Assembly (NCBI RefSeq): GCF_910592395.1 | Contig: NC_088315.1 | Coordinates: 8,806,501 to 8,870,500 of the forward strand | Direction: 5' to 3' | Origin: Lineus longissimus | Lineage: Eukaryota; Nemertea; Pilidiophora; Heteronemertea; Lineidae | Length of the DNA: 64,000 bases | Shown here: positions 29,214-64,000 of the stretch, piece after piece | Position numbering within the stretch: the first letter of the stretch is position 1 | Layout of the letters: each line of letters starts with the position of its first letter | Notes under the pieces: generated by a model | The model's database searches: none | Seen by the model: the letters and a program-made list of their open reading frames with translations, nothing else | What the model was told of the DNA's origin: nothing | Position numbers and translations under genes: made by a program

Positions 29214-29639
29214 CTTTACTTTTGAAGCTTCAAGTCGCCCTCAAACATATCCAAGCCTTCCTGAAACTAGATTTGGAAAAAAGCTGTTTGAGGCATGAAT
29301 ACATTTGATTTGACTCGTCAACCTGTTAGCAATTATCTCCAAAGCGTGCACTGCGCAAACAGGTATTTTAAATAGCTGCAACCAAGGATTATAATCGCTG
29401 CAAAATGCATAAAAAGATCTCTGCGGGTAAAAGCCATAATGGCCGATTTGATATTGATGGCAGGTTGTTACTGTTACCAATTCTTGCTGCAGGCAACTGC
29501 ATGCTGCACGGACCAAATGAGCAATCGCTGTTGCATGCGATCATGATTGCCAGTCGCGGTGATTTAAATCACTTGTTTGGGGGCACTCAAGTCAAGGACA
29601 CCTGCTTTGATCCTGGTTAATGAGTACATCATTTTCTTA

Positions 29640-38208: not shown

Positions 38209-38353
38209 TACATAGCAGACTGGTTATGATGGTACTGGAGTTGGACCAGAATCTAAAAGCGAGGACACTTCGAATTTCATGACAAGGGGACTTGATGTCC
38301 TATAATTGCCCAATACTGCCATGCATCATTACAATCAGTGTCAATCATTCACC

Positions 38354-38822
38354 CGTGATGACATGTATGATCACAATCATTGTCAAACATTAACCAGTGA
38401 TGACATTTATGATCCTTATCATTGTCAAACATTGACACATGATGACATGTATGATCCAACATTCAAACATTAACCTGTGATGACATGTATGATCTTAATC
38501 ATTGTCAAACATTGACACATGATGACATGTATGATCACAATCATTCAAACATTAACCTGTGATGACATGTATGATCACAATCATTGTTAAACATTGATAC
38601 ATGATGACATGTATGATCACAATCATTGTGAAATATTAACACATGATGACATGTATGATCACAATCATTGTGAAATATTCACACATGATGACATGTATGA
38701 TCACGATCAGTGTCAAACATTAACACATGATGACATGTATGATCACGATCAGTGTCAAACATTAACACATGATGACATGTATGATCACGATCATTGTCAA
38801 ACATTAACCCGTGATGACATGT
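38354..38822. repeat. 42-bp minisatellite, about 11 units
   Basis: Units contain TGATGACATGTATGATCACA and CATTGTCAAACATTAAC with small indels. In one frame they read as a repeated THDDMYDH peptide over 38594-38824, ending when the array ends; I treat this as a repeat artefact. Confidence 0.9.
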
Positions 38823-38843
38823 AATATGTGCTCCTTTTGTATC

Positions 38844-40097: not shown

Positions 40098-43000
40098 TCA
40101 TAAGCTTGAATCTTTGCTGGAAAGATATTCTAAGAACTTTAATATTTCCTCGGCAAAAAATTGTGGGTACTTGAGGTGGGGATGGTGACCTCCTGCATTC
40201 AACTTTACACCTCGAGGATAACCTTTGAAGTCCACTCCTGGAAAAAAAAGAGAAGATTGCTTTCAAGAACTTTTACATAACCATGATAACTTCAAAAAGC
40301 CTCGAAATCTATTGCATGAGGATATACAGTCATGAGAGAGACTCTAAAAGCTTTAAATTGAAGGCAGTGTCTATTCTATCGAAATTTGACGATGTCAATT
40401 GGATTGATAGGCCACACTGCCAACTCCATGGTTTACAAAGTAGACTTGTAACATTTTAAAGAGGTTCAGATTTTGATCCGAAAACAAGAACAAGGTGATT
40501 CTTTCTCTGGTTTCTGAGCATATTCCATGAGAATTTACACACAAACAACTGTTACCACTTCTACAGTGTTCATTGATTCCTCCCCATAGAATGGTCACGG
40601 TCATGCAAGAAAGATTAGAAGATTATGCAAGGAGCCTCATGGCCTAGTGGTTTACACTGCCGGCCACCACGCAATTGGGCCCGGGGAGAACCCAGGATCG
40701 TATGTCTGGATAAACCGGCGTGGCTTTCAAGGAACTAAAATTCCTGGCTCTTCACAGTCCTTCAAATGAGACTCAAAACCGAGGTTCCTTGTACCTGGTG
40801 TCTATGCCAGGGCAAGCTAAGACCCCACCAAGTGAGAAACATGAGCAGCTTGCGTGGACTCTATCTCTCTCGCCAAAGTCGGACCACTAGGCCAATAAAC
40901 CCAATTGGCGCCTAACCGTAGTGGCACGCAGGATACGCTCATCCCGCCTTGGAGGAGGATTACTCCTAGGAGAATGACCCCTCCAAGTACAGAGCGAACG
41001 CTGAAGAAGAAGATTAGGCAGACAAATCCCATGCTCACCTGACGTCTCCACACCGCCACCCACATCAAGTGTGGCCACCCGGTGTGGACTGATGCCAAGA
41101 AGATCTAGAAACTCGGCAGCCTTATCTGGTGAAATGAACCGGTCATCGTCAGTGTACACGGCCAGGACTGGGACGTGCTTTAGACTGAGGGACATCGCAA
41201 AGCTGCCTATCTGTCGTGAGAAGAGAAACGGATTATTTTGTCCGCTGCAGAAATGGCAAAGTACGAGCTGCAATGCCAATGATAATCACAGCGAAATGCA
41301 CAGGCGAGGGAAATTTAACAATGTTGTAAAGGGAGTCTGTAGGCAGGAGCCAATAGGGGTCTCTTCCATCTGACAGTACATCAAAACCATTCACGCTTGT
41401 ACGAGCAATGTATTTCATGCCAAATCAAACACAACTTGGTTCCCTAACTGTGGATAGAAGTCACCCAAAGATGACCAATTTGACTCCCTGGCACCTGCCG
41501 TTTCATGACCACCACACCAATGATTGTGCGCTGTGTCAGAGTATGAATTCGGCCAGAGAGAGATGAAATTAACACAATGCCTTACGTCTCTGAACTGCGA
41601 GTTTGATATGGCAAGAAGGGCTTGCATCATGTGTCGAGGGTCTTCAGCTGTGAATCCAAACTGTGTCGACTTATTTCTGACGTACTTCTTGGCAATGTTT
41701 TTCCAAAACAAACTGTCTTGCTTGCTGGCCAAACTCTTCACAAACAGATAAGTCTCAATGCACCTGAAATATGATTGATTTTGATAGTGATAAATTCACT
41801 TTCAGTAATCATTTCAGTGGAACCTCCCTAAGCAGAATAATCTATGAGTAGGTCACCCTTTTCACAACAGCAATGTTGAAATTTATATTCAGTATGTATT
41901 CATGCAATAGGAAATTTTCAAATTTAATTGAAAATTTCAAATTTTTCACCAATGGCGTAGGCCTTTAACATATCCCCGAGATAGGACAATTTGGTCAGAA
42001 TTACTGAGCTACACTTGAGGCAGGTCGAAAGCGGAGTGTCTTCATGTCCATTTCTTCCGTGAACATATTCAACTTACTCGAGATTGTGTGGTAAAGGACA
42101 AATAGTGGTCAACGCTTTGACCTTATTCGACTGTGACAATATCTTCAAAGCAGCAGAACTTCCAGAACTGTGGGCAACAATCATGTCTATTCTGGAAAAA
42201 AGAAAATAATTCTTGTCCATGTACTATATCATAAACTACATTTTTAATTTTAATTTTTGATTAGTTACTCAGTAAATAACAAATTATTGTCAGTATCTAT
42301 CTTTTGATAGAACAAGTACAGTGGAACCGCCCTAGGCAGACACCTCTGTATTAAGGACACCCTCTCTATTCAGGACCCATCTTTTGGTCCCAAATTTGTT
42401 CTTCCCTTTTCATCTGACCTCTCGAATCAGAATGCCTCTCTATTAAGGACAGCATTTGCCAGTCCCGAAGAAGTCCTTAATAGAGAGGTGCCTCGGTAGT
42501 TCACATTTCTTGTAGGCAGATTCTCTCATGAAATAATAATAATAATAATAATGAGTCTTTTATATAGTGCAATTCCATGACACTATAGTTCTCGCTCAAA
42601 GCGCTTTGGGATATCATATTATTACCCCGGTTTCCACAGAAATCAATCAGGGGTTTCAAGGAGCAACCAGAAGGTGCTCACTTGAACTCGACCAGTAGGG
42701 GAACTAAGCAGTGACTCGGCCGGGAGTCGAACCCACGACAAATATCATCGGTCAAGTAATTGCTCCGTTGATAGGGTCTGTTAGAAACTACATAACCATC
42801 CCCAGTTATGCATGGACTGTTCGGCTGGAACTTTACTCACTTTGGTACACCTATTTCACTAAGGAAGTCGAGCAAGAAGTCTGTACGTTCTTCTGTACTC
42901 TGTATAAAGGCCTCATCGTCCATCTGTACAAGGCCTTTTGTAAACCCATATCCTAGAGAGAAATTTGTTTTTTATTGTAGATCTATGTATACTAGTTAAT

Positions 43001-43832
43001 TTCATAATTGCAAAAAAAGTAATAAAACCGAGAGGAAAAAGGAATGCGTATTTATGTCTTGATCACCCTGACAGAGTTTGCTGCCAAAAGTCTAAATGAA
43101 GTCTAAATTGTTTCGAAATATGGCTGCAGAACCTGGCCAATGAAACCAAAGGTGGAGAAAACCGATGTATTTCTTACCAGGCATATTAGGTGCAATAACT
43201 CGAATTCCTTTCGTTACAAGAATATCGATGATGGGCACGAAATCATGATGGGATCCTGGCGCTCCATGAACCATCATAACTGTCTGACATTCCTCATGAC
43301 CACGAGCTCCAGTATCTATGTAAGAAGTACTGAATTTGATATGATACGGGTCATCCTCGTATATTTCTCCACATGTTTCAACAAGCGTTTCTTTTATCGG
43401 CCAGCGATCGTCTGTATGTTTGCAGGTGTGTACGAAGTCGAACTGTCGTTCTTTGCCTGCTCCGGAACCAAAAAGATGCGCTCTTTGAAAGAAGTTCACA
43501 CGTTTGGTGAGACTGTCCCTCTGATTGAAATTTGCGAATGACTGTGCCAGTGGCAGTGGTGATGCAGAAAACAGCGACAAATTAGATGAGATAACGTCCA
43601 TTTTTCTTTGCTTAACATGGGTTGACGATTTTCCTACCGGGGACAGGAGATCATCTTTAATTGAGGTCAACGTCACAAAAGTTCTCTGGTTTAGCAGTGA
43701 GGTAACATTTTGATGTGTCGACCCAAACTTGTTTTGTTGAAATTTTCCAAAAACGTTTTCTGCACTTTTTTGTAAATTTCTGTTGTTGCTTCGACTGACA
43801 AGCCGACACAGTTGAACCTGAGTAGTCCACAT
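40098..43832 (-). CDS. Alpha/beta hydrolase, DUF1057 family, probable mitochondrial leader
   Basis: Six exons: 43832-43178, 42952-42841, 42191-42078, 41763-41586, 41210-41039 and 40237-40098. Phases agree at every junction, giving 456 aa. The oxyanion-hole motif HGAPGSHHDF is at 189-198. The nucleophile elbow is AHSSG with Ser264. The acid is one of Asp374-376 (YTDDDRF) and the base His428 or 429 (AGGHHPHLKYP), so a full catalytic triad is present. HGAPGSH-DF is typical of the DUF1057 group known from nematodes; its substrate is unknown. The first 60 residues are rich in Arg, Lys, Ser, Thr, Asn and Gln and poor in acids, as in a mitochondrial presequence. Residues 60-130 are less conserved-looking. 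A SINE ends just inside intron 5. An AATAAA on the minus strand lies at 40067-40062. Confidence 0.9.
40627..41014 (+). mobile_element. tRNA-derived SINE, copy B
   Basis: Near-identical to 21048-21448 with small deletions, including one that removes part of the B box. It has the same (GAA)n tail and ends 25 bases short of the hydrolase exon ending at 41039. Confidence 0.85.
41817..41968. mobile_element. Composite of two MITE fragments
   Basis: A pogo-like left end (CAGTGGAACCTCCCTAAGCA) runs into the right half of the 'GTACGCC' element, which ends GGCGTAGGCCTTTAA at 41968. One element seems to have inserted into, or recombined with, the other. Confidence 0.55.
42319..42499. mobile_element. 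pogo-like MITE in hydrolase intron 2
   Basis: Left end CAGTGGAACCGCCCTAGGCA after TA; the right end is decayed (GAGAGGTGCCTCGGTAG). Family interior blocks are clear. Confidence 0.7.
42537..42790 (-). mobile_element. LINE-type 3' tail, reversed
   Basis: Read on the minus strand this ends CAAAGCGCTTTGAGCGAGAA...CTATATAAAAGACTCATT(ATT)n, the same plan as the LINE tail at 11420-11497. A related stretch in the other orientation lies at 59325-59420. No protein remains. Confidence 0.5.
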
Positions 43833-46800
43833 AACTAGTTCTTCAAATTCAAAAGTAGATTTTCAGTAGATCTTCCTGTAAATCATGATTTTGATGCGAT
43901 TCTAAATGTTCAATGTCATGAAAGCCACATGGGGGATTTCCCAATGATTTGTAACTCAGAAACTGTAACATTTCAATATTTCACCGCAAGTTAATTTCTT
44001 TAATGGATCATTAAGAATAATTCTATGATAACACATCAAATATGGTTTTGATTCAGAGTTGACAGTAAACATTTACATTATTTATTGATTCTTTAGAAAA
44101 CTGTAGAACAGGCTTTCATAACCATTACATTTATCTGATCTGTTATAGGATTCCCCAGTTCCTGTGACGTCATCACAAAAGGTAAACACGGAAGTAAAAA
44201 ACTTTTGAGGTTTTTGTGGTAATGTGGTTTTCAAAGTTATTCTTGTGGTCATTTGGTGATCGAATTGTCGTTTCTTTGCCATGTTTAGTTTCAGATGCAA
44301 ACCCAGCATTATTTGAATATGTTGTGGGTTGATGGCAGTGCTGTTGTCTAAGTAATAGGATTTATAGGGAGTCGAAAAGTCCCATCTACCTTAATTCCTA
44401 ATCCCTTCCTACATCCTAGTTCCTAATTCCTTAATTTCTTTCTTCTTTCCTGTTCTTTCTCTTTCAAAATGGTTTTTCTTCTCATAGCAGTTGCCACAAA
44501 GTGCTGGCTAGGCCTTGACCAATACGGTTTTGCCTGTGAAGACCTATTGGTTAGGCGATTTATTGTTACTCACTTACTGTCATCATGTCCATCTATGCCT
44601 CAATATGAGGTCACGTCGCCAAAGATTCATGACTTTTGAAATACGAATGGTTTATCACCAGTATGAATCCACATTCCTCAGATGACCACAGTCACTTGCA
44701 TCACCAGGTGGAACCCCAAACCCTCTTGGAAGGCCACCTGATACTAGTATACTAGAGGTGGCTAAATTGGATTTGATTTTAATGTGTCATCAATCTCTAA
44801 CCCTCAAAAGGCCCCTGCCTGCTAAAAAGCTCCCTAGGAAAACATAATATGAGTATCAAACTCTATTGTAAAATTACCTAAACCACCCCATCCCCACCTG
44901 ACAAGTAAAAACCAGAAAGAAAACTCTGCTGGAACCCCAGGAAACTCCCTTTAATAGTACCAATTAATCCATGTAATTAAAGAACCTCCTAACACTGTAA
45001 ATCACAACAGTAAATTGCTCAGGTCCACATGGTTAAGTTTACCTTTCCAAAATCAATAATTTTTCAATAAAATTATTAATTTAAATCATGAATGGATGGT
45101 AGTATTGTGTGATAAACGATTTCTGTTTTCATTATGCTAATATAAGTGCTGCAACAGATGGTTGCGTGAAGAACATCTTATTGAAGTAACTTCGAGTTGA
45201 TTAAGGAGGCCTACATCTATGGCTCCATGAAAGGTGGCTTGATATTTCCCACAAAAATCAATTTCAATAGAACTTGTGGCATTGTCTGTGATGGGCTGAC
45301 TGGGGTTCAGTAGGGGCGGGCTGCATTATCTACTCATGGTCAGTCTACGTTTTATCTAAGGCTGTCCCATCCCTTAAAGGCTTACACCGTTTGTTTACTT
45401 TGCTGGCCGTAATGAAAATGTCACACGTCACTGCCATGCCAGCATGCCCAGAGAAAACCTATCGTTTTTTGCAGATCTGTGATGATTAAAACAATACACC
45501 GTGTAATATTCTCGTACGACAACTTGAGTACACAGATACGCCAAATTAACATGCAGTGTTTGGGAAAATTGATCCACGCAGCAATTGTATACATATAACG
45601 TGCAATGATTCAGACTATCAGCATCGCCTGGACTTATATTTTTCAATATGACGACATCGAATGGTTTGAGAGGGACTACGTCCGTCCCCAAACCTCGCCC
45701 CAGTAGACCTTCTAATGTTAGAATCATGCGAATGAGTAATTATGGTAAACCTGCCTCAGGTCTGTCCAAATTCACGCTAGGGCGGTTGACTCGGAGCCTC
45801 AATGTGGCCAAACCCAAAAAAAGCTCTTGCCCACCCACAGATCAACACAGCTGCGTGTTTGAATACCAGCAACTTTGTTTGCCAGACATGTGGAAACAGT
45901 CGATATTGTGAGCCTCCCTTTGGGGCCCACATGTCCACAGCTGTTCGTGATGTATACATTCTATAGTTCGGCTGTTGGACTCGACCAACCGCTATAAAGC
46001 AGAATACTGATGGTAGTGTCTGTTCGGGTCAGTCTGTATCTTAGGGTGTAACAATTTGAAACATAAAGAAAGGATAATTGTTTCAAGCGGAAAATTTTTT
46101 AAATTTTTGTGGTGAGTATATTTATCTCATATTTGCCCTTATCATTTCGAATTGTGTGATATTGCATTTCTTGATGATGAGCATGATGGGTTGCGCAATG
46201 ACAGTTATGAAGGATTAACTGGTCCGTAGAGGCCTATTGGCGGAACAAGAATTCGTGGAGGTCTAACGTGGGATTTTCCCACTGTCAAGTGATCATCCAC
46301 TCTTTCAGTTCAGTAGAAGTTATCTTTTGAGCAGTTTTGGGGAGCTTTGGGAATTGGGATTTGAAATCTTGTCATGAAATTATGATCATAATGTAAACAA
46401 AGCATTTGTGAAAGGCATTTGTAATAGTATATGCCTTTCGCTTAATCAGCTCAGTTAATCATATCAATGGATAACAAATGAGACTACATGTATAAGTCAT
46501 TTCTACTTGACCTATTGACCTGGCATAAAAAGCTGTGACGTCTGAAATCCCATGATGTTGGTGATAACAAATATTGACTACATCATTGCATAGAAGTATT
46601 GGTACAGCCTTTGTCAAAGATCTACTTCCTGGTGGGTACTAGGGCCAGAATATTTGCTGAAGAAGCTTTGAGGTAAGCCTGTGTCCATATTTTGCTTGCA
46701 GTGTAGCATACCTGAATATTTTCTCAAAGTTCTTTCTCACTGATTTGAATTTTGTCTGGCTCATGGCTTCTGTCCTATTGTTTCCTTTCTTATCAAATAA

Positions 46801-46880
46801 AATTGACTGAGTGGACTTGGTTTCAGTGGCCGTCATTATATGACCTTGTCATGGTCACAGCAGTTAGAATTGATTGGATT
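43833..46880. other. Intergenic region upstream of the hydrolase
   Basis: I see no gene. A consensus CRE (TGACGTCA) is at 44165-44172, about 330 bases upstream of the hydrolase start and in range of its promoter. Two overlapping open frames at 45428-45911 lack any family signal. The rest is A+T-rich unique sequence with a MITE-like end near 45375. Confidence 0.4.
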
Positions 46881-48433
46881 ATGTCACAGCCATCTGGCAG
46901 ATACAGTCACAGCTGTCTGACAGATGGGCTTCAGTCACAGCCGTCTGACAGATCGGGCAGCAGTCACAACTGTCTGTGAGATTAGGTTACAGTCACAGCC
47001 ATCTGTCAGATTAGGGGACAGTCACAGCCATCTGACAGATTGGACTGTAGACAAAACTATCTGACAGATTGGGCTGCAGTCACAGTTGTATGACAGATTA
47101 GGTTTCAGTCACAGACATATCAGGCAGATTGGGCTACAGTCACAGCCATATCTGACAGAATAGGCTACAGTTTGAGCCATCAGACTGATTGGGCTGCAGT
47201 CACAGCCATCTGACAGATTGGACTACAGTCACAGCCATCAGACAGATTGGGTTACAGTCACAGCCATCTGACAGATTGGGTTACAGTCACAGCCATCTGA
47301 CAGATAGGGTTACAGTCACAGCCATCTGACAGATTGGACTACAGTCACAGCCATCTGACAGATTGGGTTACAGTCACAGCCATCTGACAGATTGGGTTAC
47401 AGTCACAGCCATCTGACAGATTGGACTACAGTCACAGCCATCTGACAGGTTGGACTACAGTCACAGCCATCTGACAGATTGGGTTACAGTCACAGCCATC
47501 TGACAGATTGGGTTACAGTCACAGCCATCTGACAGATTGGGTTACAGTCACAGCCATCTGACAGATTGGGTTACAGTCACAGCCATCTGTCAGATTAGGT
47601 TACAGTCACAGCCATCTGACAGATAAGGTTACAGTCACAGCCATCTGACAGATTGGACTACAGTCACAGCCATCTGACAGATTGGGTTACAGTCACAGCC
47701 ATCTGTCAGATTAGGTTACAGTCACAGCCATCTGACAGATAAGGTTACAGTCACAGCCATCTGACAGATTGGGCTACAGTTACAGCCATCAGACAGATTG
47801 GGTTACAGTCACAGCCATCTGACAGATTGGGTTACAGTCACAGCCATCTGACAGATTGGGTTACAGTCACAGCCATCTGACAGATTGGACTACAGTCACA
47901 GCCATCTGACAGATTGGACTACAGTCACAGCCATCTGACAGATTGGGTTACAGTCACAGCCATCTGACAGATTGGGTTACAGTCACAGCCATCTGACAGA
48001 TTGGGTTACAGTCACAGCCATCTGACAGATTGGGTTACAGTCACAGCCATCTGTCAGATTAGGTTACAGTCACAGCCATCTGACAGATAAGGTTACAGTC
48101 ACAGCCATCTGTCAGATTAGGTTACAGTCACAGCCATCTGTCAGATTAGGTTACAGTCACAGCCATCAGACTGATTGGGCTGCAGTCACAGCCATCTGTC
48201 AGATTGGGCTACAGTCACAGCCATCTGACAGATTGGGCTACAGTCACAGCCATCTGACAGATTGGGCTACAGTCACGCAGCCATCTGACAGATTGGGCTA
48301 CAGTTACAGCCATCTGACAGATTGGGCTACAGTTACAGCCATCTGACAGATTGGGCTACAGTCACAGCCATCTGACAGATTGGGCTACAGTCACGCAGCC
48401 ATCTGACAGATTGGGCTACAGTCACAACCATCT
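46881..48433. repeat. 29-bp minisatellite, left block (about 53 units)
   Basis: The consensus unit starts CAGTCACAGCCATCTGACAG and ends with nine bases that vary between ATTGGGTTA, ATTGGGCTA, ATTGGACTA and ATAAGGTTA. The left edge is diverged and the right part is homogenised. Longer-range patterns of variant order repeat (for example runs around 47580-47700 and 47690-47760). A 31-bp variant has an extra GC (CACGCAGCC). Confidence 0.95.
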
Positions 48434-49195
48434 CATTACCAGCTATTGCGGGCCTAGCCAATTAAGCCAATTAGTGCACCTGCTTAATTGGTCCTGGCAA
48501 GCCTAATGGAAAATGCATAGGAAATATCAATAAAGTAGGCTTTTTGGGCGGGGTGTTAAAATAATCCCAACTCCCGACTTCTGACACAATTCTATATATG
48601 TCTAGGTATTTACTGGCAAAATTTGGAGTGATTTGGATGGAAATTCGATGTGTCCATCTATAGGTTGAAAATTTTGGTAAATCTGTAATGCTTCACTCGT
48701 AGCCTGTAGTGTAAATTCCTGAGAAAGTGGGTTTTGGGGGCTTTTCTAGCTGCACTAGCTCCAAAACTATACATTTGATACAAACTCCCGACTTCAGACG
48801 TGGTTGATATAACTCTTAGGATTATATTCCCAAGATTTCAGCTTTATTGGAGAAAAATTCATAGTGTCCATAGGGGGGTTGAAAATTGGAGGATTTTCAA
48901 TTTTTTTCCCAACAAATATGCGAAAAATATTACTTTCCACCTAGAATTAATCAAAATTTCGCAAACTATCATAAAGTACTTCCTTGCAACAATCATTTGT
49001 GAAGCTTTCAAAACTTTTGGCTGATTTATTTGACCCTAAATCAGCAAAAACCAAACATTTTAGTGTTTGTATGCACCAATGCACAGGAGGCTAATTGCCA
49101 GATTAATTCACACCTTTCCAATCTCAAACAATAGGAATGATGGAGTCTCCCTCTATTCAAAACAGAGTGTGCTAGGCCCGCAATAGCTGGTAATG
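48434..49195. mobile_element. 762-bp inverted-repeat element inside the minisatellite
   Basis: Ends are CATTACCAGCTATTGCGGGC and its exact complement, a perfect inverted repeat of 24 or more bases running on into CTAG(C). It splits one minisatellite unit between CCATCT and GACAG, leaving at most a 1-bp duplication (T). It has no long open frame, so it is non-autonomous; I cannot assign a superfamily. Confidence 0.8.
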
Positions 49196-49690
49196 TGACA
49201 GATTGGGTTACAGTCACAGCCATCTGACAGATTGGGTTACAGTCACGCAGCCATCTGGCAGATTGGGTTACAGTCACGCAGCCATCTGACAGATAGGGTT
49301 ACAGTCACAGCCATCTGACAGATTGGGTTACAGTCACGCAGCCATCTGACAGATTGGGTTACAGTCACGCAGCCATCTGACAGATTGGGCTACAGTCACA
49401 ACCATCTGACAGATTGGGTTACAGTCACAGCCATCTGACAGATTGGGTTACAGTCACGCAGCCATCTGACAGATTGGGCTACAGTCACGCAGCCATCTGA
49501 CAGATTGGGCTACAGTTACAGCCATCTGACAGATTGGGTTACAGTCACAGCCATCTGACAGATTGGGTTACAGTCACAGCCATCTGACAGATAGGGTTAC
49601 AGTCACAGCCATCTGACAGATTGGGTTACAGTCACGCAGCCATCTGACAGATTGGGCTACAGTAACTCTCATCTGACAGATTGGGCATTT
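49196..49690. repeat. 29-bp minisatellite, right block (about 17 units)
   Basis: Continuation of the left block after the inserted element, with many 31-bp CACGCAGCC-type units. The last units before 49690 are diverged. Confidence 0.95.
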
Positions 49691-50672
49691 GACCATCATC
49701 ACAACTTGTCTTACAGAGTTTTATCTTGAAAGTACCAGAAAAGATCGATATATATATAAATACGAATTGGGGAACTGGCAACAAAGCATTTATAGGTGGC
49801 AAAACAAAGAGTGAGAAGGTTACACATAATTTCATGCACTTCTAGCTTGCATGGAAATTTGCCAGTGATAAATTGCAATTATTGTTGACTGAGCTGAGGT
49901 AATGTTAGAAACGCATACATCAGCAATTTCTGTACAGTTAAGTGGTATCTGTATTACTCTATGTCTTAATGGTGTAATTATTAGGGTGCAGCGAATACTG
50001 AATGCAAGTAATGAGGAGCAATTTCTCTTTGACTGCTCTTGATACATATGAAAGCGTACTTTACATATGAAGAAGAGAGGTAGTGACGTAATTTTGGGAA
50101 CCTCTGATATATGCACTTCTACCAGCCTATGATGCGATGTTTCTTTTTAGCCATTCTTTGCGTTAGGCCTAAACTGTTGCAAAACAGTCCCTAAGGAAAA
50201 TTGTAAAGCCGTCCACTTGCATGTGCAAAGCTTCAATCCTGGTAGTGCTGATTTCGGGCTACTGGAATTCAGTAGGTTGATCTATTTTCAGTTGACTACT
50301 AGACCACCTGTTTGTGCTCCAATGCCTTATGCTCACAGTGGTGTGATCAAGTTAGCATGTGACATGGACAGACTGCTGTCTTATACTTTCTTTCATTTAA
50401 CCTAGACTTGGACGTTGGATCTCTACCAACTTCTTCATGTGAATATTGTACACTGTTGGGACACAGGCATTCAGTGTTCCCAGGAATTGGGCTGGGATCT
50501 GATGGGTCCAGTGGGTGTACCATTCTTGCTTGTCTATCAAGCCCTAAACAGTTTAACTTGGCTGACCTAGATGGTTGAACATACAGTGGCGGTTTTGGGG
50601 TGGACTATGAGGTGCCCTATTGCGTAGCAACGATTTTTCTGCAAATTTCTCCAGAGGCATGTCATTATCATA

Positions 50673-50836
50673 CAGTAGAACCTCTCTATTATGGACACTC
50701 CTACTGGCCTTGATAGAAAGGTGTCCAGATTAGAGAGGACAAATTCAATGGAAACAACCAATTTTGCACCAAAACTAGCATCCTTAACAGAGAGGGTGTA
50801 TTAGTAGAGAGGTGTCTGCTGAGAGAGGTTGCACTG
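50673..50836. mobile_element. pogo-like MITE upstream of LITAF
   Basis: Starts CAGTAGAACCTCTCTATTAT and ends GAGAGGTTGCACTG, flanked by TA on both sides. It ends 52 bases before the acceptor of the first coding LITAF exon. Confidence 0.8.
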
Positions 50837-50887
50837 TACTATAAATTTTAGCCCTCCAGTTCATACTTTCTTTTCATTTTTTTCCAG

Positions 50888-53800
50888 TTTTGGCTGACTT
50901 AGCCAGTGACGATGGAGAAAGAAGCACCACCCCCGAGCTATGGGGCTGTGGACGGGCAACAGCAGCCACCATATCCACAACCAGGTGAGTGATCATCTTA
51001 TAGCTAAACTGACATTTTTTTCTTCATCTTACAGGGCTCATCCTTAAATTTGGCAGCTGAATTCTCAATACTGTTTTTTGATTCCAATATCCTCACTGGA
51101 GCCGACTTCAGCACCAAAAAAATCAGTGCTTATACAAAATATCTATTGTCATTGATAATTTAGATCATTTTAACTTTTATTCTGCCTTTGTTCCTTTGAA
51201 TCATGTTACTATTCCAGGCATGCCTTATCCCCCTGCCCAGCCGGGCCCAACAGGGGCACCTCCAATGTATGAGCCTCCAAAAGACAGGGCACCCCCAGGG
51301 GCAGGATATCAACAACCTTACACCCAACAACCACAGCCAGGTAAAATTTGAAAGCATTTTTGCCTTCTTTTTCTGTGATCCTCAGGCCAGGTCAGATGGT
51401 TGTGAGAGTTTAGACAGAACTAGTCAAGCCACCTGGGTTTCTTTGGGGCCACTCCGGCCAAGTCCTTTGATCAAAGCCACCCGCCATCACAGTGTATCGC
51501 AACTAATTGCTCACTTGGCCTTCGAATTGAAAATTTTCAACCCTCTTAGTCGTGGCCCACTGAGTCACTGCACTTCCAACTGCCTTCAAATGTATTGAGT
51601 GACATGTCGCTGGTTGTACCAGAGCAGATCACAAAATGTGACCCGTCACAGCAAAACCAGGCGCATGTCGCTTTGAGCTTTGCAGCTTGAGACGGACTGT
51701 TTGATCAATTCTCTATTGTCTGCCTTTTGTGAAATATGAGCACATCAATTTCTTCCATTATCTCCTGGTGTCATTTAGACTCATCTTCTGTGCGACATGC
51801 GCCTGCTTTTGCTGTGACCGGTCACAAATGTCCATCGACACCTTTGAATGGACTTTAGAAAAGGGCGATCAGTCCTATAATTTTCTTGTTGGTGAAAATA
51901 TTTACGTTAGGATTTTTACCGTTAGGATTTTTATCGCGTACCCTAACATGGTTATGCATGAATGTTTCATTCTAATGCAACACTACATCAATGTATGTCA
52001 AGGGTTTTGTTGTCGTTCAGACACATGTATGCAGTTTGCATGTGACAGGTGTAAAAATTAAAGGAAACCAGTCGCGAAATGCTTATGAAAATGGGAGCGT
52101 TTTAAATGGCCCAATAAAAAAACCTATGCAATCATATGGAGAGAAATTTTTTAGTTTATTTCAAGCTTGAGTTTGTTTATTTTGTTTTCTTTACATTCCT
52201 TAATTTCAGTTCTTCAAACGTTTCTTTTTGGCAGTGCTTTCCTTTATGTTCAATTTAATTTCAGTTCATCAAACTATCATTGTAAATGCGTCTTTTGGTC
52301 CGCAACCCATGACTACGACCTGTCCAATGTGTAATGCATTTGTCACCACCACTGTTGAATATAACGCCGGGGCCCTCCCATGGATTATTGCAGGATTATT
52401 ATGTCTGTTTGGGTAGGTAACAGTTTTGAAAGCACTGGTCAGAATTATTGTAAACCCCTTGTATTTTTGTAAAATAGATTTTTTAAATCTTTTATTATTG
52501 TGTCAGTATCAGTGTGTTGCAAGTGTTTGAACAAACTGCTGCTGCCAAACCAAGGGGCAGTAAATATGTCCTTCATTCTAATTGAGGTGTGCTGAAGAAC
52601 TGGACTGAGAAAAAGACACTCCGGAGAACACCATCAAAAAGCTTGACTGCTTGCAGCTCCACCCTGGGATTGCAGGCCGTTTCGAAATTTAGACTTGAAA
52701 CACTAAGTTGTTTACTCAAAGAATGCAAAAATAATGGGGTTTACAGTAATATACAGACAAGCCCAAGTCCCATGTTGATAGCCTCCATATAATGCAATTT
52801 TCTTCCATTTTAGCAAAGATGGCGCTGCCGGCTCACTCTCAGAAGCATGGGCTGCCAAAATGGCCACTATACTAATGATTTAAGCATTTTTCAGGTCGGA
52901 CCATAATCGTCATGGAGGGGATCCGATTTGAATCCCTTCCTGTCACCTGTCGGTGTCCATTTTGTAAAGCATGTGTGACTACAACGGTTGATTATAATGC
53001 GGGCATCATAGCATGGTTACTCTGTGGGTTGCTGTGCTTGTTTGGGTATGTAGATTGTGGGAAACAAACGTTTTCAAGGGTGTAGCCTTGTGGACTGAGG
53101 AAGTAAAGAAAATTGCTCTCCGATGGAATTTTCAAAGGAGACATCAGGCAGCAGTCGACGAAATTGCTATCAACTCCTTCCTAACCTTTTACAGGGGATG
53201 ACAGCACGTCATGTCCTGCGGCCCCATCACATACGTTGACGTGCATAGCACGTCTTACGCTACGTGTTATCCTTGTAATCCTCAGTCCCAAGGCATCTAG
53301 GGTTTCTAACTTGCAGCGTTTGCATATCTCTCTGTATGCGGCATATCTCTTGAAATTCTTCCTCTAGGTTAATGGTTCACTAACATTTATGTCTTACAGC
53401 GCAGCAGACTATAATTATTGCCAATATAACATTTGGTCCTCATCCCATTACGATGCAATGCCCATATTGTGAGGCTCATGTCACAACGACAGTTGCGTAT
53501 CATGCCGGGGTTCTGGCGTGGTTGATATGCGGACTGCTCTGCCTATTTGGGTATGTGGCGGTAATGGCATGATTTTTTTCACTGGGAGAGTCCCTTGCGG
53601 GTTGGTCCTTGCTTTCACCCAGTTGTTGGTAAAGGATGCATGTCTCTTGGTTCCGTAGTTGTGAGCTTACTACTAAGCTAATGGCTTGGAGAATAACTTC
53701 CAGGTCCCTCCCTTCCCCTTGTCCTGCATATTGCCAAAGGGCGTGTTTAATGTCACTGGGAAGATGCTGGCAGTATTGAAATTATCATCAGGAATTTCAA

Positions 53801-56470
53801 TAGCAAACACGTTCTTTTCTGAATTGTCTTTGGCGCATTCAATAAATCTTGGTGGTGATGTCTTTGCTTTGGATACCCATGCTAATGATCAATGCAGCGA
53901 CCTACCACTTCCGTTCATGTTTTAAGGCCCATTAAACTTCTGATCACGTGACAAATCGAGTGTTGTGCGACGTCACCGGTGACATCAGACATGCCGTTTA
54001 CCTTCATCATGACGTAAGGACGTCATACAACACTAGATTTGTCGCGTGATCAGAAGTTTAAAAGCCCAAAAACACAATTTTATGGCACTGCGAGCGCCAC
54101 CTTCTGACCTTACACCAAAGCAGCAAGTCCCATTTTGGTAACCAGTTTCGCCTAGCGTTTCCTGTCTGTCTTTCTGGGAATGGTTCTGTTATTTTCTTCT
54201 GCTTCATCTCTTTGAGCCATTCTGCCTGGTTTAGTTTGACTTAAAGTACAGCATCGTTATTTTGTGCTTTTGAGAGAACTGCTTGGCTCAAGGGTAAACC
54301 TTTTAGAGGAGCTTTGGTAAAGGGTATGTCACAGCTTGGTGAAGGAAGGTGGAGTGCATACAGTGGAACCTCCCTAAGCTGACCCTCTTTAAGCAAGACA
54401 CCCTCTCTTAAGGGCACTGATTTTGGTCGCAAATGGATCACTTCTATACAATTTCACCTCTGTAATCAGGACACCTCCTTAATAAGGACAGCACTTGTCG
54501 GGCCCTAAGTTGTTCCTAATGGAGAGGTTGTGCTGTACTGGTAAAATAATTGCAACAAAAACCGGGGAATAACTCTTGTGAGTGTCTGCTTTGGTGCCAA
54601 ATCGATTACACCATGAAGCCTGTACATACGTCTTTGAAATGCCATTATATTTTTGCAACGTTGAGTCATATAATGAATAATGATCACATTTTCACTGTAA
54701 ATAATGTCATGATAATATGAGGCATACGGTGGAAATCTGAAATTTGATATTTGAGGACGTATGTTCCCACGATACCCACTAGTACAACTGTATTGCGTGG
54801 GGAATAGATTTCCGGTAACAATACACCTGCCCAATCTTTTTCGACTGGTAAAATTAAGGGGTGTAAGGAGTACATTACACCCCTCTGAAAGTCGCTTGAG
54901 AAAAGATGGTATGGGACTATTGTTGCCGGAAATCTATTTCCGCAAATACCGTTGTATGATTGGTCAGTGTGGTCACATGGATGCCCAATTCATACAAAAT
55001 GTCCCCCTTTTCTCGCCTCAAAGTCAAGCTTAGTTGTTACATGAAATGTACAAATCATATGGTGATGTTGAAGTACGGTCAGATTGATTTTCATTGCAAA
55101 GTCATATCAGCTGCTGTGCTTGAAATTGATGTTAAAGGGGTACGCCGTTCATAAATACTAGTGGTCCAGGAAAATAGAAATGCAGTTATACACAATGCCG
55201 TAGTGCAGTCATTATGCATGCAAATCTGCTGAAACTTGGTATTTATTGTATTTGTATATCTGTCTACATAACGGCAATGTCGAAATTTATATCCAGTATG
55301 TATTTACGCAATTTGGAATTTTCAAATTTAATTACAAATTTCAAATATGTCACGAAAGGCCTTTCAGCAGTGTATATTGATCTTGGGCTTGTGGATATAA
55401 TAATATATCGCATCTATGAAATGAATCAATGAAATAAAGCTTGGAGTATTGACAACTTGCCGGATGCACTAATCGTTAAAGGTCCGGTCCATAAATGAAC
55501 TGATTTACGTTTTTGGCCCACCAGAAATGTTCCCCTTTGAACTGGTGGTGCCAGGCAAAGATGACGTTTTAAATTTGTTGCCGAGTGGAATGGGTCATTT
55601 TAGGACACAAAGTTTTTATCTCTCATTTGGAATATGGGGGACTTTCTTTTTTGTTTCGGTTAATTTGTAGAGCTACGCATCAAATATTCTTAAACTGGTA
55701 GTTAGATGGCGCTAGAGTGTCATCATAGAAAGACAAGTAATCAGCCAAATTTAAATGTTCGTGAGTTATTCTATGAGTGTTTCTTATCCCTTTCAGATGC
55801 TGGCTAGGATGTTGCTTAATTCCATTCTGTGTGACAGACCTCCACGACTGCACGCACACGTGCCCGAATTGTAATCGTGTCCTGGGGCGTTACAATCGTA
55901 TGTAAGACGAAAGATCGACCATCGGCAGCCGTCGAAGCAACGGATTCGACCAATGGCAGCCACAGCAGCAACGGATCGATTGAGGAAATACAACGCCATG
56001 AATTGTATTCTCTAAAAGCCATGGAACGTCTTATTCAATTAAGTGAATGCCCATTAAAAAACCTATGAGGCCGTTATCTGCAAAACAAGGAATGGCTCCA
56101 ACCTCAAATTTGGCATTCACTTCGTTTTAAAAGAGTTTTAATTGCTTTGAATAGTTGTACAAATGTAAATGATTACAAAGAGTGATGATATATCTATACT
56201 GTATTTTAGAAATATTCAAGAATGGGGTGTGTGGGGGGGGGTCTGTTGAGTGCTGTCCTTTTTGATGTAACATTTATTTTTCAAACATCTTCCAGAAATC
56301 CAGTGTGTTCCAATGTGTGTCTCTATTCATTTTTTTTCCAATCTGATTCCACCAAACACGATCCAGTCAACAAAAGGTGTTATTACATGACCGCTGTGAA
56401 TCCTTGCGCCTGATTGGACCAACAACATCATGTGACCGATCAATAAAAATTGACGTTTCTTGGTGACGTC
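50888..56470 (+). CDS. LITAF-domain protein with three alternative domain exons (transcript span; CDS 50912-55905)
   Basis: LITAF/SIMPLE proteins are monotopic zinc-binding proteins of late endosomes and lysosomes. Coding exons are 50912-50984, 51218-51340, one of three (A 52265-52412, B 52895-53045, C 53400-53550), and 55797-55905. The protein is 150 aa with A, 151 with B or C. The N-terminus is Pro/Gln/Tyr-rich and has two PPxY motifs (PPSY 7-10, PPMY 39-42) that bind WW domains of NEDD4-type ligases. Each alternative exon gives the first CxxC knuckle (CPMC, CPFC or CPYC) and the start of the hydrophobic segment (GLLCLFG). The common last exon gives GCWLGCCLIPFC and the second knuckle HTCPNCNRVLGRY. 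A likely poly(A) signal is at 56442-56447. The 5' UTR starts upstream of an acceptor at 50887. Confidence 0.92.
51632..51829. mobile_element. 'GTGACCCGTCACAG' MITE, copy 2
   Basis: Same element as 27614-27810 in the opposite orientation, with ends ATGTGACCCGTCACAGCAAA and TTTTGCTGTGACCGGTCACA. It lies in LITAF intron 2. Confidence 0.8.
52265..52412 (+). CDS. LITAF alternative exon A
   Basis: 148 bp, entering in phase 1 and leaving in phase 2. It encodes VHQTIIVNASFGPQP, the knuckle CPMC, VTTTVEYNAG and GLLCLFG. The acceptor is TTTAATTTCAG and the donor GG|GTAGGT. It is one codon shorter than B and C. Confidence 0.9.
52895..53045 (+). CDS. LITAF alternative exon B
   Basis: 151 bp with the same phases as A. 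It encodes GRTIIVMEGIRFESLP, then CRCPFCKACVTTTVDYNAG and LCGLLCLFG. The acceptor is GCATTTTTCAG and the donor GG|GTATGT. It is the most diverged N-terminal part, with two extra cysteines around the knuckle. Confidence 0.88.
53400..53550 (+). CDS. LITAF alternative exon C
   Basis: 151 bp with the same phases as A and B. It encodes AQQTIIIANITFGPHP, CPYCEAHVTTTVAYHAG and ICGLLCLFG. The acceptor is TGTCTTACAG and the donor GG|GTATGT. It resembles A more than B in its first 20 residues. Confidence 0.88.
53932..54061. mobile_element. 130-bp palindromic TTAA MITE
   Basis: Left arm TTAAACTTCTGATCACGTGA pairs with the right arm ending CGTGATCAGAAGTTTAA; the arms are about 35 bases each, leaving a short loop. 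TTAA at both edges. Lies in the long last LITAF intron. Confidence 0.75.
54361..54535. mobile_element. pogo-like MITE in last LITAF intron
   Basis: Starts CAGTGGAACCTCCCTAAGCT and ends GAGAGGTTGTGCTG, TA on both sides. Confidence 0.8.
54783..54956. mobile_element. 174-bp inverted-repeat MITE
   Basis: Left arm TACAACTGTATTGCGTGGGG continuing into AATAGATTTCCGG pairs with a right arm ending CAAATACCGTTGTA over about 37 bases. Possible TA target site. Confidence 0.7.
55132..55365. mobile_element. 'GTACGCC' TTAA MITE, full copy
   Basis: Starts TTAAAGGGGTACGCCGTTCA and ends GAAAGGCCTTT; related to 35311, 39252, 41861 and 15488. It lies in the last LITAF intron, about 430 bases before the terminal exon. 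Confidence 0.75.
56442..56447 (+). other. Likely LITAF poly(A) signal
   Basis: AATAAA about 540 bases after the stop at 55905, followed by a T/G stretch (TTGACGTTTCTTGGTGACG). Confidence 0.5.
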
Positions 56471-56717
56471 ACGTCCGCGAGCAACACTGAACTTTCAAAA
56501 ATCATGAATTTATATGCAGTGGCTTGTCGGTAATTCGCAGTGGTCATGTAGTAAAGAAAATATAGCCCTTTTTCTCAGGCAATATGAGTTTTTCTGTCCC
56601 ATGAAATTTGACATTGCCCTCAAAATGGGCTATATTCGATGATTACCATATTTGGCAGGGAAATACATTTGCCAGTCCATTTACACCTGAATTTGTTACC
56701 AAGTAACGTTTGAGATA

Positions 56718-56901
56718 CAGTGGAACCTCCCTTAGTGGATACCCATTGGTGGACACCTGTATGTAGGACACCCTCTGTATAAAGGACAGTGATTTTGGTC
56801 CCAAATTGGTCATTTCTATACGATTTGACCTTTGTAATCAGGACAGCTCTCTATTAAGGAGAGCATGTCCCAAAAGTGTCCTTAGTAGAACGGTTCTACT
56901 G
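56718..56901. mobile_element. pogo-like MITE
   Basis: Starts CAGTGGAACCTCCCTTAGTG and ends GAACGGTTCTACTG with TA on both sides. Confidence 0.8.
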
Positions 56902-58046
56902 TATTTAAGATTTTCTTGTACCAGATTTAGCAAACAAAGTGACTATGCAGCCTCTTCCTCCTAAACAGATTTTGACCTATGTAACTTTGAGGTTTTACAA
57001 TTAATTCGTGTCATTGATTAGCTGCTGAAATAAGATAAGTGTGGAGAAGTTGCTGTATTTTAGATTTAGAATTAGAATTAGAAGGTACGTCATTCTTAAG
57101 CTGTTACTATAAACTGGTCGAAAGTTGGCGAAGTTTTTATTTGGTAGAGACTAAAGTCCATGCTTTACTGCAAAAAATTTGATGGTTAACTGTGAACTGT
57201 AAACTGTAAACTCACTCAGGAGCCAGCACAACCTTCAGTGGGGCAGTATTTGCACCGTTCATACTGCAGTCGGGCATGGCGGAATTGGGGAAATTTGTGA
57301 GACTGCTCCTGATCGATTTTACAGTAATGGGAAGCCTGCTTTTGTGTAACTTCCATAGATGAAATGAGATGTATGGTTGCTGTAGAGTTTATCCGTGGTT
57401 CAGCTTTATTGGGATAATCCATCGACTCCCAGCTTGCTGCTATCAAGCTCCAGCATGTTCCTGTCAAAGTCCCAGAACTGTTAGAGTTCTTTGATAGAGT
57501 AACGATTAATAACATAGTTTTTGAAGATGTAACCTCAATCTCCCCAATCCGTACTACTAAATTTTCATAAGTGCTATTGTTCCCGCACAGTCCCTGTAGG
57601 TTTTTGGTTGGTTAGCCTAAATGAGATGGCAGCACTGCATTAAATTCAACGAAGACACAGCCCTGATATTTGGTAATGCTCGTTATTTTTAAATGAAACT
57701 TTTCCCGAGCTAATTAGTTGGGATCCGGGCCACACGGTGTTTACCGGTGCTGGTCAGGAGATGATGGATTACCCTCATTAATAAATTAGCCTGTGATAGG
57801 TATGTGTACTTTCTGGTGGTGGATGGTAACATTTTGATTTAATGTGCTGTGTAATTGTGTGATGAATATTATATATATTAGCATAAAATTTTCTTGTCTT
57901 CGTTTTCAAATTTTCTTTGCCCTACAAAACTTAAAAGATGCTCAATGACCTTTTAGTGTGCTAGAGGACTGCAGAGACTTCTGTTATACCAAGTGCATGG
58001 ACCCATCTTACCCCAAAGAAGTCCATTTCCACTTTAATAGAGCACA

Positions 58047-61111: not shown

Positions 61112-63226
61112 ATGTGCGGGTGGTACCCAAACTTGAGCTGGATCCCCATGTTTCTCGGCTGCCTGACGGTGGTTACATTCTTTGTCTCGTACGCCATCGC
61201 CATCTATGAAGGAGATGTCGCAGCATATTTCCCGTACATCAGGTAGGTGGCGGTCCCTGTCACTATAGATTCATGCACTTGATTGGGAACAACGTTTACA
61301 TGACGTAGTGTTGGCCGTCGTCACATCACCATGCATTTTACATTACGGTAACGTGACGAGACGCGACGTTTTCGTAAACGTTGGTCCCAATCAAGTGCAT
61401 GGATCTATACATGCTTCCCGAAATTGGTGGCTTGCATGGGAACTAATTTTTTCCCCCTTGTCCGTCATCAAAGGCATTCAAGTGAGTTGGTCAACCATGT
61501 CCCTCCACCATGAGGCCTAGTTTCCCCTTATGACATCATTATTTTGGACACTCAGCGCCCCATTTCTTGAAAGGTGTATTGTTGGAGCCAATAATGGCAT
61601 TGCATTCTGACACTTTTGCGGCTTATGATACATGATAGTGTCCGGTAAGGGATGTTCCACTGCACTCTTATTTGCAATCTCCACACACACCTATGCCACG
61701 TCAGCCGCTTACACCTCTGCCACAGCCTCTAGGATCTATGTGAGTAGAGATTGCGTATTCCCCATTATTCCCAGTGCAAGACATTTGCTGCTGTAGTCAA
61801 CGACTGGCAAACCAGCAAGGTCAGGGTCAGTAACGATAAAAATTTATGAAATTCTTCTCCTTTTTTCAGCGACACTGGAGCTAACACTCCAGAGAGTTGT
61901 ATTTTTGGTGAATTTCTCAACATTGCTGCTTTTTTAGGTGAGTACCTGTTATATTTGAAGAAAACATTTATGACGTCATTTGTGCTGTTTCAGTCTACAG
62001 CTCTGGGGCATTTTCATCATCCTCACTCAATCACGCCTGCAACCTGACATTTCTATGTCAACTGTGCCACTTCGTCCCTTGAGGCATAACGGTCATGAGA
62101 CCTCTGTGTCAACACCTCTCTTGCAACTCCAGCACTCTCTGCATCGAGGGATACAATACATCCATCATGCATGTCTGGCTCAGTTCCCTTCATCGTTTGC
62201 ATCCAGCATCCTCTGGTTGCCACTCCATAAGTATCTTGGGATGCCTTACTGGTTCCATGGCTCCATCGGACACACATTTCCAAACCAACAATACCAGGGC
62301 CTGGTTGTTCAAAGACACAAACTTCACGTCGTCTCTAACAGTTACTTTAAGTAGTGGACCCAATGGATGTGCCTTATAATTTTGGTTGGAAAGAACTATG
62401 AACTTGTGCATCCTTTAGACAATAATAATACTAGACATGCTAGAAGCTGACACATGGAGTAGTCATATCTATGGGCTTTATTTGACCTTGAAATTTGGCA
62501 TGTTTGTTTAAGATTTATGTGATATTTCTGTCCTCTATTTCAGCCTTCATCACAATTTTCATCCGGTTCAAACTGGTTAGTTCGTTCACCCGAGACACGA
62601 TTCGATCAGTGAAGATTTTGAACGTAATTGGTATGGTTATTGGTGCTATCTCAAGTTTCGGGCTTACAATGGTCGCTAACTTTCAGGTAAGAATTATGGT
62701 CTTGTGCATTATCCAATCTCCCTGTGCAAACTCAGTTCCACTCAAGTGGCTATTTGGTAATTCAAATTACCTATCAGTATGGTAAGTGAGAGGCAAAAGT
62801 GTCTCCAAAATAATCACTGTTATAATCCGTGGTGAGTCTAAGTGAAATACCTGTTTTTTTACAAACTTTGGTGCAAAAATTGGCCTTTCACTTTCAGAGG
62901 CTGCTATTGTTTGGCGCTTCAGCACAGGCCAAATTGTTTACAGCTAGTGCTCTGATCTAAAAAAAGTCTTAGATTCAAATATGCTTCATCAATAGATCAA
63001 CAACTTAAAGTGGCTGTAAGTCTAAACCTATCTTGCATTTCTTTTCAGGACAATAAGATCGAAGTTGTCCACATCATCGGTGCCTCGTTCGTTTTCGGCC
63101 TGGGTGTTGCCTACACCTGGGTCCAGGTTGCCATCTCATTCCTCATGTACCCGGATTACAACGCGCTCACTATATGTGTTGTGAGGGCTGTCATGTCATG
63201 CATCTCTACGATCAGTATGGTCATGG
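61112..63226 (+). CDS. DRAM/TMEM150-family membrane protein, 3' end outside window
   Basis: DRAM proteins are multi-pass membrane proteins of lysosomes or plasma membrane that modulate autophagy. Four coding exons are present: 61112-61242, 61870-61937, 62544-62686 and 63049-63226, with agreeing phases, giving the first 173 residues. Family blocks are the SDTGANTPESCIFGEFLNIA motif after the first loop, IGAISSFGLTMVANFQ, and ASFVFGLGVAYTWVQ. Four hydrophobic segments are visible (about 8-30, 56-70, 93-113, 120-140) with another starting near 155. Human DRAM1/2 are about 240-266 aa, so at least one more coding exon lies to the right. The exon at 63049 could read on to a stop at 63318, but the donor GG|GTATCC and the family's length argue for splicing. 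The start Met follows the acceptor at 61110 by one base. Confidence 0.88.
61266..61407. mobile_element. 142-bp palindromic MITE in DRAM intron 1
   Basis: Left arm TAGATTCATGCACTTGATTG pairs with the right arm CAATCAAGTGCATGGATCTA; the pairing continues to about 35 bases (AACGTTTAC). TA at both edges. It starts 24 bases after the exon 1 donor. Confidence 0.75.
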
Positions 63227-64000
63227 GTATCCTTTTTAAAAGATCAATTTCAGCTTCTTTTTGGGACCGACGTAAAGTTTCTTCAGGGTGGTACAGAAAA
63301 ACTTTCCTCAAAACTTGAAGTTTTGTTCTCTCCTCATCGGGCATAACTTGTAGCAGAGCATTTTAAAAGGCTCCTATTTTCAGAAAACCAATTTCCACAA
63401 AGTTAAGAGTCTATGTTTTTTGTCTAATCTAAATTTCTTGGTATCATCATGTTACATCAACTAACCAAGGATGTGCAGTGCAGCTTAAAAGGCTCCCATA
63501 GAACACAAATTTCGACAAATCTTGTAGAAACGGTTTAGAGTCGATGCGTTTAGTTGAATCTAAATTTCCTGGTAGGAACATGTGCTGAGACAGGAAGTGC
63601 AGTGCATTTCAAATGACATCCCATATCCGGAAAGACATATTACAACAAATCTCCTGTCGAGTCGTTGTCAATTTCTTGGTAATATCGTGTTACATGATAG
63701 GAAATGCAGTGCTGAGGCCTGACTTATGTTCGGGATATTAGAACTTGGCTTGGTCATGTCTTCTCTTTACTTCCGAAAGTTGTGCTGTGGGAAAAATTTC
63801 ATGTATAGCCTCTCTATGAAAGACACTTTAGTATAGAGAACTGTCCGTGCTGTGCAGTGTTATTTCCTTAACCCTCAATCCTTTTGCGTGTAAAAATACT
63901 AATACCGGTACCGGTTTTATAAATCGCATGCAATTTTTCAATTCATTTCTGATTTCAATTCATTTTGTCCTGAAAGGGTTAATTTCACTTTTTCTTTGTT
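63227..64000 (+). other. Intron of the DRAM-like gene up to window end
   Basis: No coding exon with DRAM features seen. It contains two or three diverged repeats of a block with AAAAGGCTCC and GGAAGTGCAGTGC (about 63365-63720) and a decayed pogo-like MITE near 63808-63860. Confidence 0.45.

Follow-up and report, generated by a model that had tools for sequence, protein, structure and literature searches.

How can one gene hold, in a row, three exons that each encode the first half of the same domain, and are these exons used one at a time? The question is raised by a single plus-strand LITAF gene on chromosome 8 of Lineus longissimus, which was assembled by its splice signals from positions 49500-57500 of the window, that is, of the whole stretch of 64,000 nucleotides that we analysed, which covers 8806501-8870500 of contig C8. 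The gene opens with two coding exons common to all products, continues with three internal exons that resemble one another (A, B and C), and closes with one common last exon. Judging from the sequence, we consider it quite probable that A, B and C are mutually exclusive and make up one cluster, which arose via tandem duplication of one internal exon.

Layout of the gene and its predicted proteins

The first-pass annotation of this DNA had described three exons of 148, 151, and 151 bp with an entry phase of 1 and an exit phase of 2, each coding for a full first CxxC knuckle and the start of the membrane segment. Its coordinates proved exact to the base, as GT-AG is found at every boundary that it gave, including the upstream donor after 51340 and the downstream acceptor before 55797, and translation yields the expected knuckles (Table 1). 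Each length leaves a remainder of 1 on division by 3, and the introns between the copies measure 482 nt (A-B) and 354 nt (B-C). One upstream exon pair and one downstream second-knuckle exon had been assigned to all three copies, and this was borne out, because the exon at 55797 is the only convincing second half in the window by tblastn, a six-frame motif scan, and an HMM scan, in which the other second-half matches score 1.2 bits or less; the tblastn match of the last exon ends at 55902. N- or C-terminal exons specific to one copy, which the annotation had named as refuting evidence, were not found for A or B in the window. Immediately 5' of exon 1 there is an acceptor that ends at 50887 (…TTTTTTTCCAG before 50888), so a 5' untranslated exon probably lies further upstream. 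The acceptor region of exon A is duplicated 55 nt upstream, where splicing would, by arithmetic, shift the frame.

Table 1. Features of the Lineus longissimus LITAF gene, in positions of the window
Feature	Position	Strand	Description
Upstream exon 1, common to all	50888..50984	+	ATG at 50912, coding 50912-50984; PPSY motif; donor GTGAGT
Exon 2, common to all	51218..51340	+	123 nt; proline-rich; PPMY motif
Duplicate of exon A acceptor region	52200..52219	+	19/20 bases same; 55 nt upstream (direct-repeat family D3)
Alternative exon A	52265..52412	+	148 nt; encodes CPMC of knuckle 1 and the beginning of the hydrophobic anchor; contained in protein P0001
Alternative exon B	52895..53045	+	151 nt; most divergent copy; CPFC in knuckle 1; 6 Cys, 4 Lys/Arg
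Alternative exon C	53400..53550	+	151 nt; knuckle 1 CPYC; nearest of the three to other phyla's LITAF
Last coding exon, common to all	55797..55905	+	Remaining anchor, knuckle 2 (HTCPNC), stop TAA 55903-55905

The predicted proteins score 83.9 (A), 76.5 (B), and 86.1 bits (C) with the Pfam LITAF model PF10601, all above its cut-off of 23.8. They carry the LITAF hallmark, namely CPMC, CPFC, or CPYC together with CPNC from the common exon, on either side of a hydrophobic stretch, as well as an N-terminal proline-rich arm with a PPxY motif in each upstream exon. Exon B encodes six cysteines and four basic residues; A and C encode three or four cysteines and no Lys or Arg. The exon A isoform agrees at every residue with a database protein of Lineus longissimus, P0001 (“LITAF homolog isoform X2”), an entry that represents 2 member sequences, and its label as isoform X2 implies that another isoform exists. 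When the isoforms with exon C and exon B were used as protein queries, no entry of their own was among the hits, and the exon A protein alone was recovered, at 87% and 83%. These values are also the full-isoform identities for A-C and A-B (a score-based estimate gives 96% and 92%). A sequence search of solved structures with P0001 gave no match.

Reading frame, splice signals, and the choice of copy

Inclusion of A, B, or C alone leads to an intact protein of 150, 151, or 151 aa, respectively, with an identical end, and stops were met in all five other combinations tried (none, AB, BC, AC, and ABC). By hand count, the premature stop lies 114 nt upstream of the last-exon junction in AB and 78 nt upstream of it in BC and AC. 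The usual rule for nonsense-mediated decay is a stop at least 50-55 nt before the junction, so the two-copy mRNAs should undergo such decay. If all three copies are skipped, the stop falls within the last exon, and the product, a truncated peptide, might evade decay. Exactly one copy is required for a productive mRNA; the frame permits double inclusion in splicing, but the outcome is unproductive. Thus, the claim that exactly one exon must be chosen stands for productive mRNAs and fails for splicing itself, in view of the intron lengths, the GT-AG borders throughout, and the lack of a pairing signal described below.

Splice sites were ranked against the 444 GTs and 360 AGs in positions 50000-57000 with matrices that represent a general consensus and were not trained on Lineus longissimus. 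On this general scale, A, B, and C have donors at the 97th-98th percentile and acceptors at the 91st-94th, next to the 90th for the exon 2 acceptor, at least the 99th for the exon 1 and exon 2 donors, and the 99th for the acceptor of the last exon. The alternative sites are therefore somewhat weaker, in their donors than exons 1 and 2 and in their acceptors than the last exon. Branch-point-like motifs are present about 20 nt before B (CTAAT) and about 17 nt before C (CTAAC), and no CTAAY was found in the 50 nt upstream of A, exon 2, or the last exon; such a motif occurs within 50 nt upstream of 15 of the 360 AGs. Another AG lies close upstream of the B acceptor, leaving an AG-free stretch of 8 nt.

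What could enforce the use of a single copy was examined in several ways. Competing RNA pairing is one known means, of which Dscam is an example, and pairing intron sequences that enforce exclusivity had also been raised in the first-pass annotation. We scanned two docking positions in this single species with 30-nt windows and the worst-of-three duplex energy, a design from which weak or long-range pairing could escape. For docking/selector pairing with all three copies, shuffles were as good in 3/7 and 2/7 cases, and in a repeat at a coarser step they were as good in 76/80 (docking after C) and 26/80 (docking before A). Competing pairing was rejected as unsupported, since its duplex energies were no better than those of shuffles. 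Steric interference and U2/U12 incompatibility were rejected as well, given the length of the two introns and sites that are all GT-AG, with donors GTAGGT or GTATGT. The introns contain 6 direct repeat families and 12 inverted pairs, which on reading appear to be matches of the kind expected by chance, intron-internal hairpins, and the acceptor duplication upstream of A. With intron length, site class, and pairing all unsupported, frame plus decay remain as enforcement, and the choice of copy is probably made by splicing regulators. In the mechanism that we propose, one internal LITAF exon would have been tandemly duplicated into A, B, and C within a single gene. The splicing machinery would then pick A, B, or C, proteins that bind the flanks of the exons probably setting the choice by tissue or condition; mRNAs with two copies would be degraded by nonsense-mediated decay, and skipping of all copies would give a short truncated product.

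Origin, age, and constraint of the copies

A genome search with the LITAF model listed 28 matches, 4 of them within this gene, and we examined 11 stretches around the others; the search scored the best candidates only, and more distant LITAF copies could be missed. In every one of the 13 other LITAF genes found, a single first-half exon is paired with one main second-half exon, some with weak scores (24-27 bits for the first halves of L013 and L019, 16.5 bits for the second half of L018). The GG|GT donor lies at the same place as here in 10/13 genes and is not plain in L009, L013, and L017, which together with the single first-half exons indicates that the family as a rule splits its domain between two exons. 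Among the LITAF genes found, only this one has three first halves for a single second half. A normal LITAF gene on C1 is followed downstream by an additional second half, on the minus strand of L017 (1635-1736), which is degenerate and has its knuckle broken to CPSY.

One tree was built from 26 first halves, namely those of the three copies, the 13 Lineus paralogs, and 10 others; there, the three copies group against the 23 other rows with a support of 85/82, where the bar of the tool is 95/80; this grouping was not recovered in an earlier 29-row tree that lacked the Lineus paralogs. C has the shortest branch and is the slowest-changing of the three, and B has the longest. C scores 183 with Lingula, 172 with A, and 166 with B, and A and B are each nearest to C. 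We infer that a C-like exon was duplicated in tandem inside the gene, a single origin being suggested and not proven by these data.

The likeness of the copies is more than chance would give, as indicated by tblastn of the copies against the window, with E values of 1.4e-18 to 1.7e-18 for A-C, 6.4e-15 to 7.7e-15 for A-B, and 3.6e-18 for B-C. Synonymous differences are near saturation (pS 0.81 for A-B, 0.71 for A-C, and 0.89 for B-C), and replacement differences are fewer (pN 0.35, 0.24, and 0.27; Fisher p 1.0e-6, 2.5e-6, and 2.2e-10, respectively). Thus, the duplications are old, and the proteins were constrained for most of that time, although constraint between pairs is no proof that each copy is in use today. 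Identity between the copies is 50-65% at the protein level, and B matches C at about 27/49 residues (55%). In neutral simulations starting from C, 1 substitution per site left a mean of 8/49 residues alike (maximum 18 in 1000 runs), and 0.5 substitution per site left a mean of 18/49 (maximum 29). An open frame by itself is weak evidence of constraint, with 11-14% of such exons staying open by chance at 1 to 2 substitutions per site (14% at one; substitutions only).

These data bear on the possibility that only one or two copies enter productive mRNA and that the remaining copy, for which B would be the likeliest candidate, is either a relic in decay or a frameshifting poison exon which lowers expression. 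This would fit the presence of exon A alone in a named protein, the early stops after double inclusion, and, for B, the longest branch and the nearby upstream AG. Nevertheless, we regard it as unlikely, because B keeps an open frame (to the extent that the chance rate above allows), good splice sites, and a branch-point-like motif, its differences from C are strongly biased toward synonymous sites, and its roughly 27 C-like residues exceed both neutral means, although synonymous divergence has passed saturation; C, in turn, is the slowest-changing copy.

Another explanation is that B or C serves as a first exon with its own promoter, from which an internal in-frame ATG would give a short LITAF protein that lacks the proline-rich arm. 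An in-frame Met does precede knuckle 1 in every copy, and the ATG of B has G at -3 and +4, which counts in its favor under the Kozak rule. However, all three copies have good acceptors, which a first exon does not need, and they agree in entry phase and nearly in length. The four introns from 51341 to 55796 contain no PPxY or PTAP/PSAP stretch (the same scan of 46000-50911 gave one antisense PPLY), and the available part of PMC5142333 describes the proline-rich arm as retained across eukaryotes except apicomplexans, so that we consider this explanation very improbable. It is harder still to believe that tandem LITAF genes are in the making here, with C and the last exon as the old gene and A and B as remnants of duplicated neighbors: neighboring LITAF genes do exist on Lineus C1 and C10, but no private second-half or N-terminal exon of A or B was found in the window, and the named exon A protein uses the common ends, with A joined to the last exon if that entry is transcript-based.

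Mutually exclusive use of A, B, and C is therefore the best reading, as it accounts for frames that are open with a single copy, good splice signals, constraint, and one second half for three first halves. The mutual exclusivity put forward in the first-pass annotation is upheld to this degree, and on the other side stands the fact that exon A alone is seen in a named protein.

Predicted function, known systems, and surroundings of the gene

Researchers have found that the two cysteine pairs of human LITAF jointly hold one zinc, that the protein binds zinc and inserts into endosome membranes in a monotopic manner, and that alteration of one cysteine in either pair abolishes membrane association (PMC5142333, PMC5095921; available portions of both). 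Each copy encodes knuckle 1 with the residues that precede and surround it, as well as the initial portion of the anchor, the remaining anchor being encoded by the common exon. Because both cysteine pairs form one zinc site in human LITAF, each copy would supply half of the zinc site and part of the anchor, and an alternative exon would by analogy make sense only when it is spliced to the common last exon. The idea that the “membrane-contact half” is swapped thus applies to knuckle 1 and the first anchor part and does not extend to the remaining anchor. Partner motifs would be common to the isoforms, which would differ in residues beside the membrane, by which membrane binding or location may be tuned; for exon B, an altered membrane preference or cysteine acylation is possible. 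We tentatively suggest a three-way LITAF switch, in which splicing swaps half of the zinc site and part of the in-plane anchor and so retunes membrane preference, most strongly with B, while the PPxY partners are kept; this goes beyond the exon cluster itself and is rather less probable than not.

The gene is similar to LITAF and CDIP1 (PF10601, LITAF-like zinc ribbon) in its PPxY proline-rich arm, the two CxxC knuckles around the anchor, and the C-terminal position of the domain, and differs from them in that its first half comes in three alternative versions. Alternative splicing occurs in human LITAF (PMC9336024, as far as its accessible text goes). The human tandem exclusive clusters treated in PMC5740500 likewise consist of neighboring similar exons with near-equal length, equal phase, and frame-shifting joint inclusion. 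According to the accessible sections of that paper, incompatible frames leading to decay were present for validated exclusive exons in 20/28 orthologous genes, and joined reads were seen for 18/20; LITAF does not appear in its main text, and the present case involves three copies in a nemertean LITAF gene and is predicted from genomic sequence. Exclusive exons governed by competing RNA pairing, in the portion available of PMC6071210, also form an array of similar exons from which one is kept, but the Lineus gene shows no docking/selector signal above shuffles. The oyster alternative oxidase gene (PMC5589949, in part) is another spiralian gene that makes two mRNAs via a duplicated exon, and differs in gene, domain, and number of forms, which is two.

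The first-pass annotation knew of no such arrangement in LITAF genes, and we found no description of exclusive exons in a LITAF gene in open-licence PMC texts, including the available portions of PMC9336024, PMC9205547, and PMC13113599. The splicing mode is well known, and its use in the LITAF gene family seems to be new. If transcripts confirm it, the gene would offer a natural swap experiment that shows which membrane-adjacent residues may vary, and would illustrate exon duplication as a route to LITAF diversity, where the 13 other genes found keep one first half.

We also looked for equal ends with a swapped first half elsewhere. The 140 proteins listed by the searches with the exon C and exon B isoforms were compared without gaps, ends and middle separately, and no clear pair was found. 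One candidate pair from two tick species (P0092 and P0136) was rejected, since P0136 has no knuckle 1 and seemingly carries an out-of-frame stretch. The isoforms of Lingula (3) and Mercenaria (2) differ only within the proline-rich arm. Four frog-like proteins (P0018, P0043, P0097, and P0111), which come from different species or an unstated source, are alike at 24-26/30 and 26-27/30 residues in the ends and at 29-35/50 in the middle; they could be paralogs or another case of a varied first half.

Several other features were noted in the window. Two arrays of a 29-base tandem repeat are located just upstream of the gene (46902-48433, about 53 copies, and 49196-49685, about 16 copies; 90-92% matches), and a 42-base tandem repeat array of about 12 copies at 38320-38823. 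Similar dispersed stretches (gaacctc...gacaccctctct...) were seen by eye at 50687-50850, 54363-54540, and 56710-56890, perhaps a short interspersed element, with one copy in the intron before the last exon, and an 18-base unit at 42339-42376 resembles them. A TIR-domain exon (PF13676) is found at 25716-26183 on the minus strand, and near it is a long open frame at 28284-29240 without a Pfam match at 0.001. Further exons are TFIIH p62-like (PF08567, 31424-31765, with BSD also matched below its cut-off), tetraspanin (10596-11060), alpha/beta hydrolase (DUF1057, 43092-43862, minus strand), and Frag1/DRAM (62956-63318).
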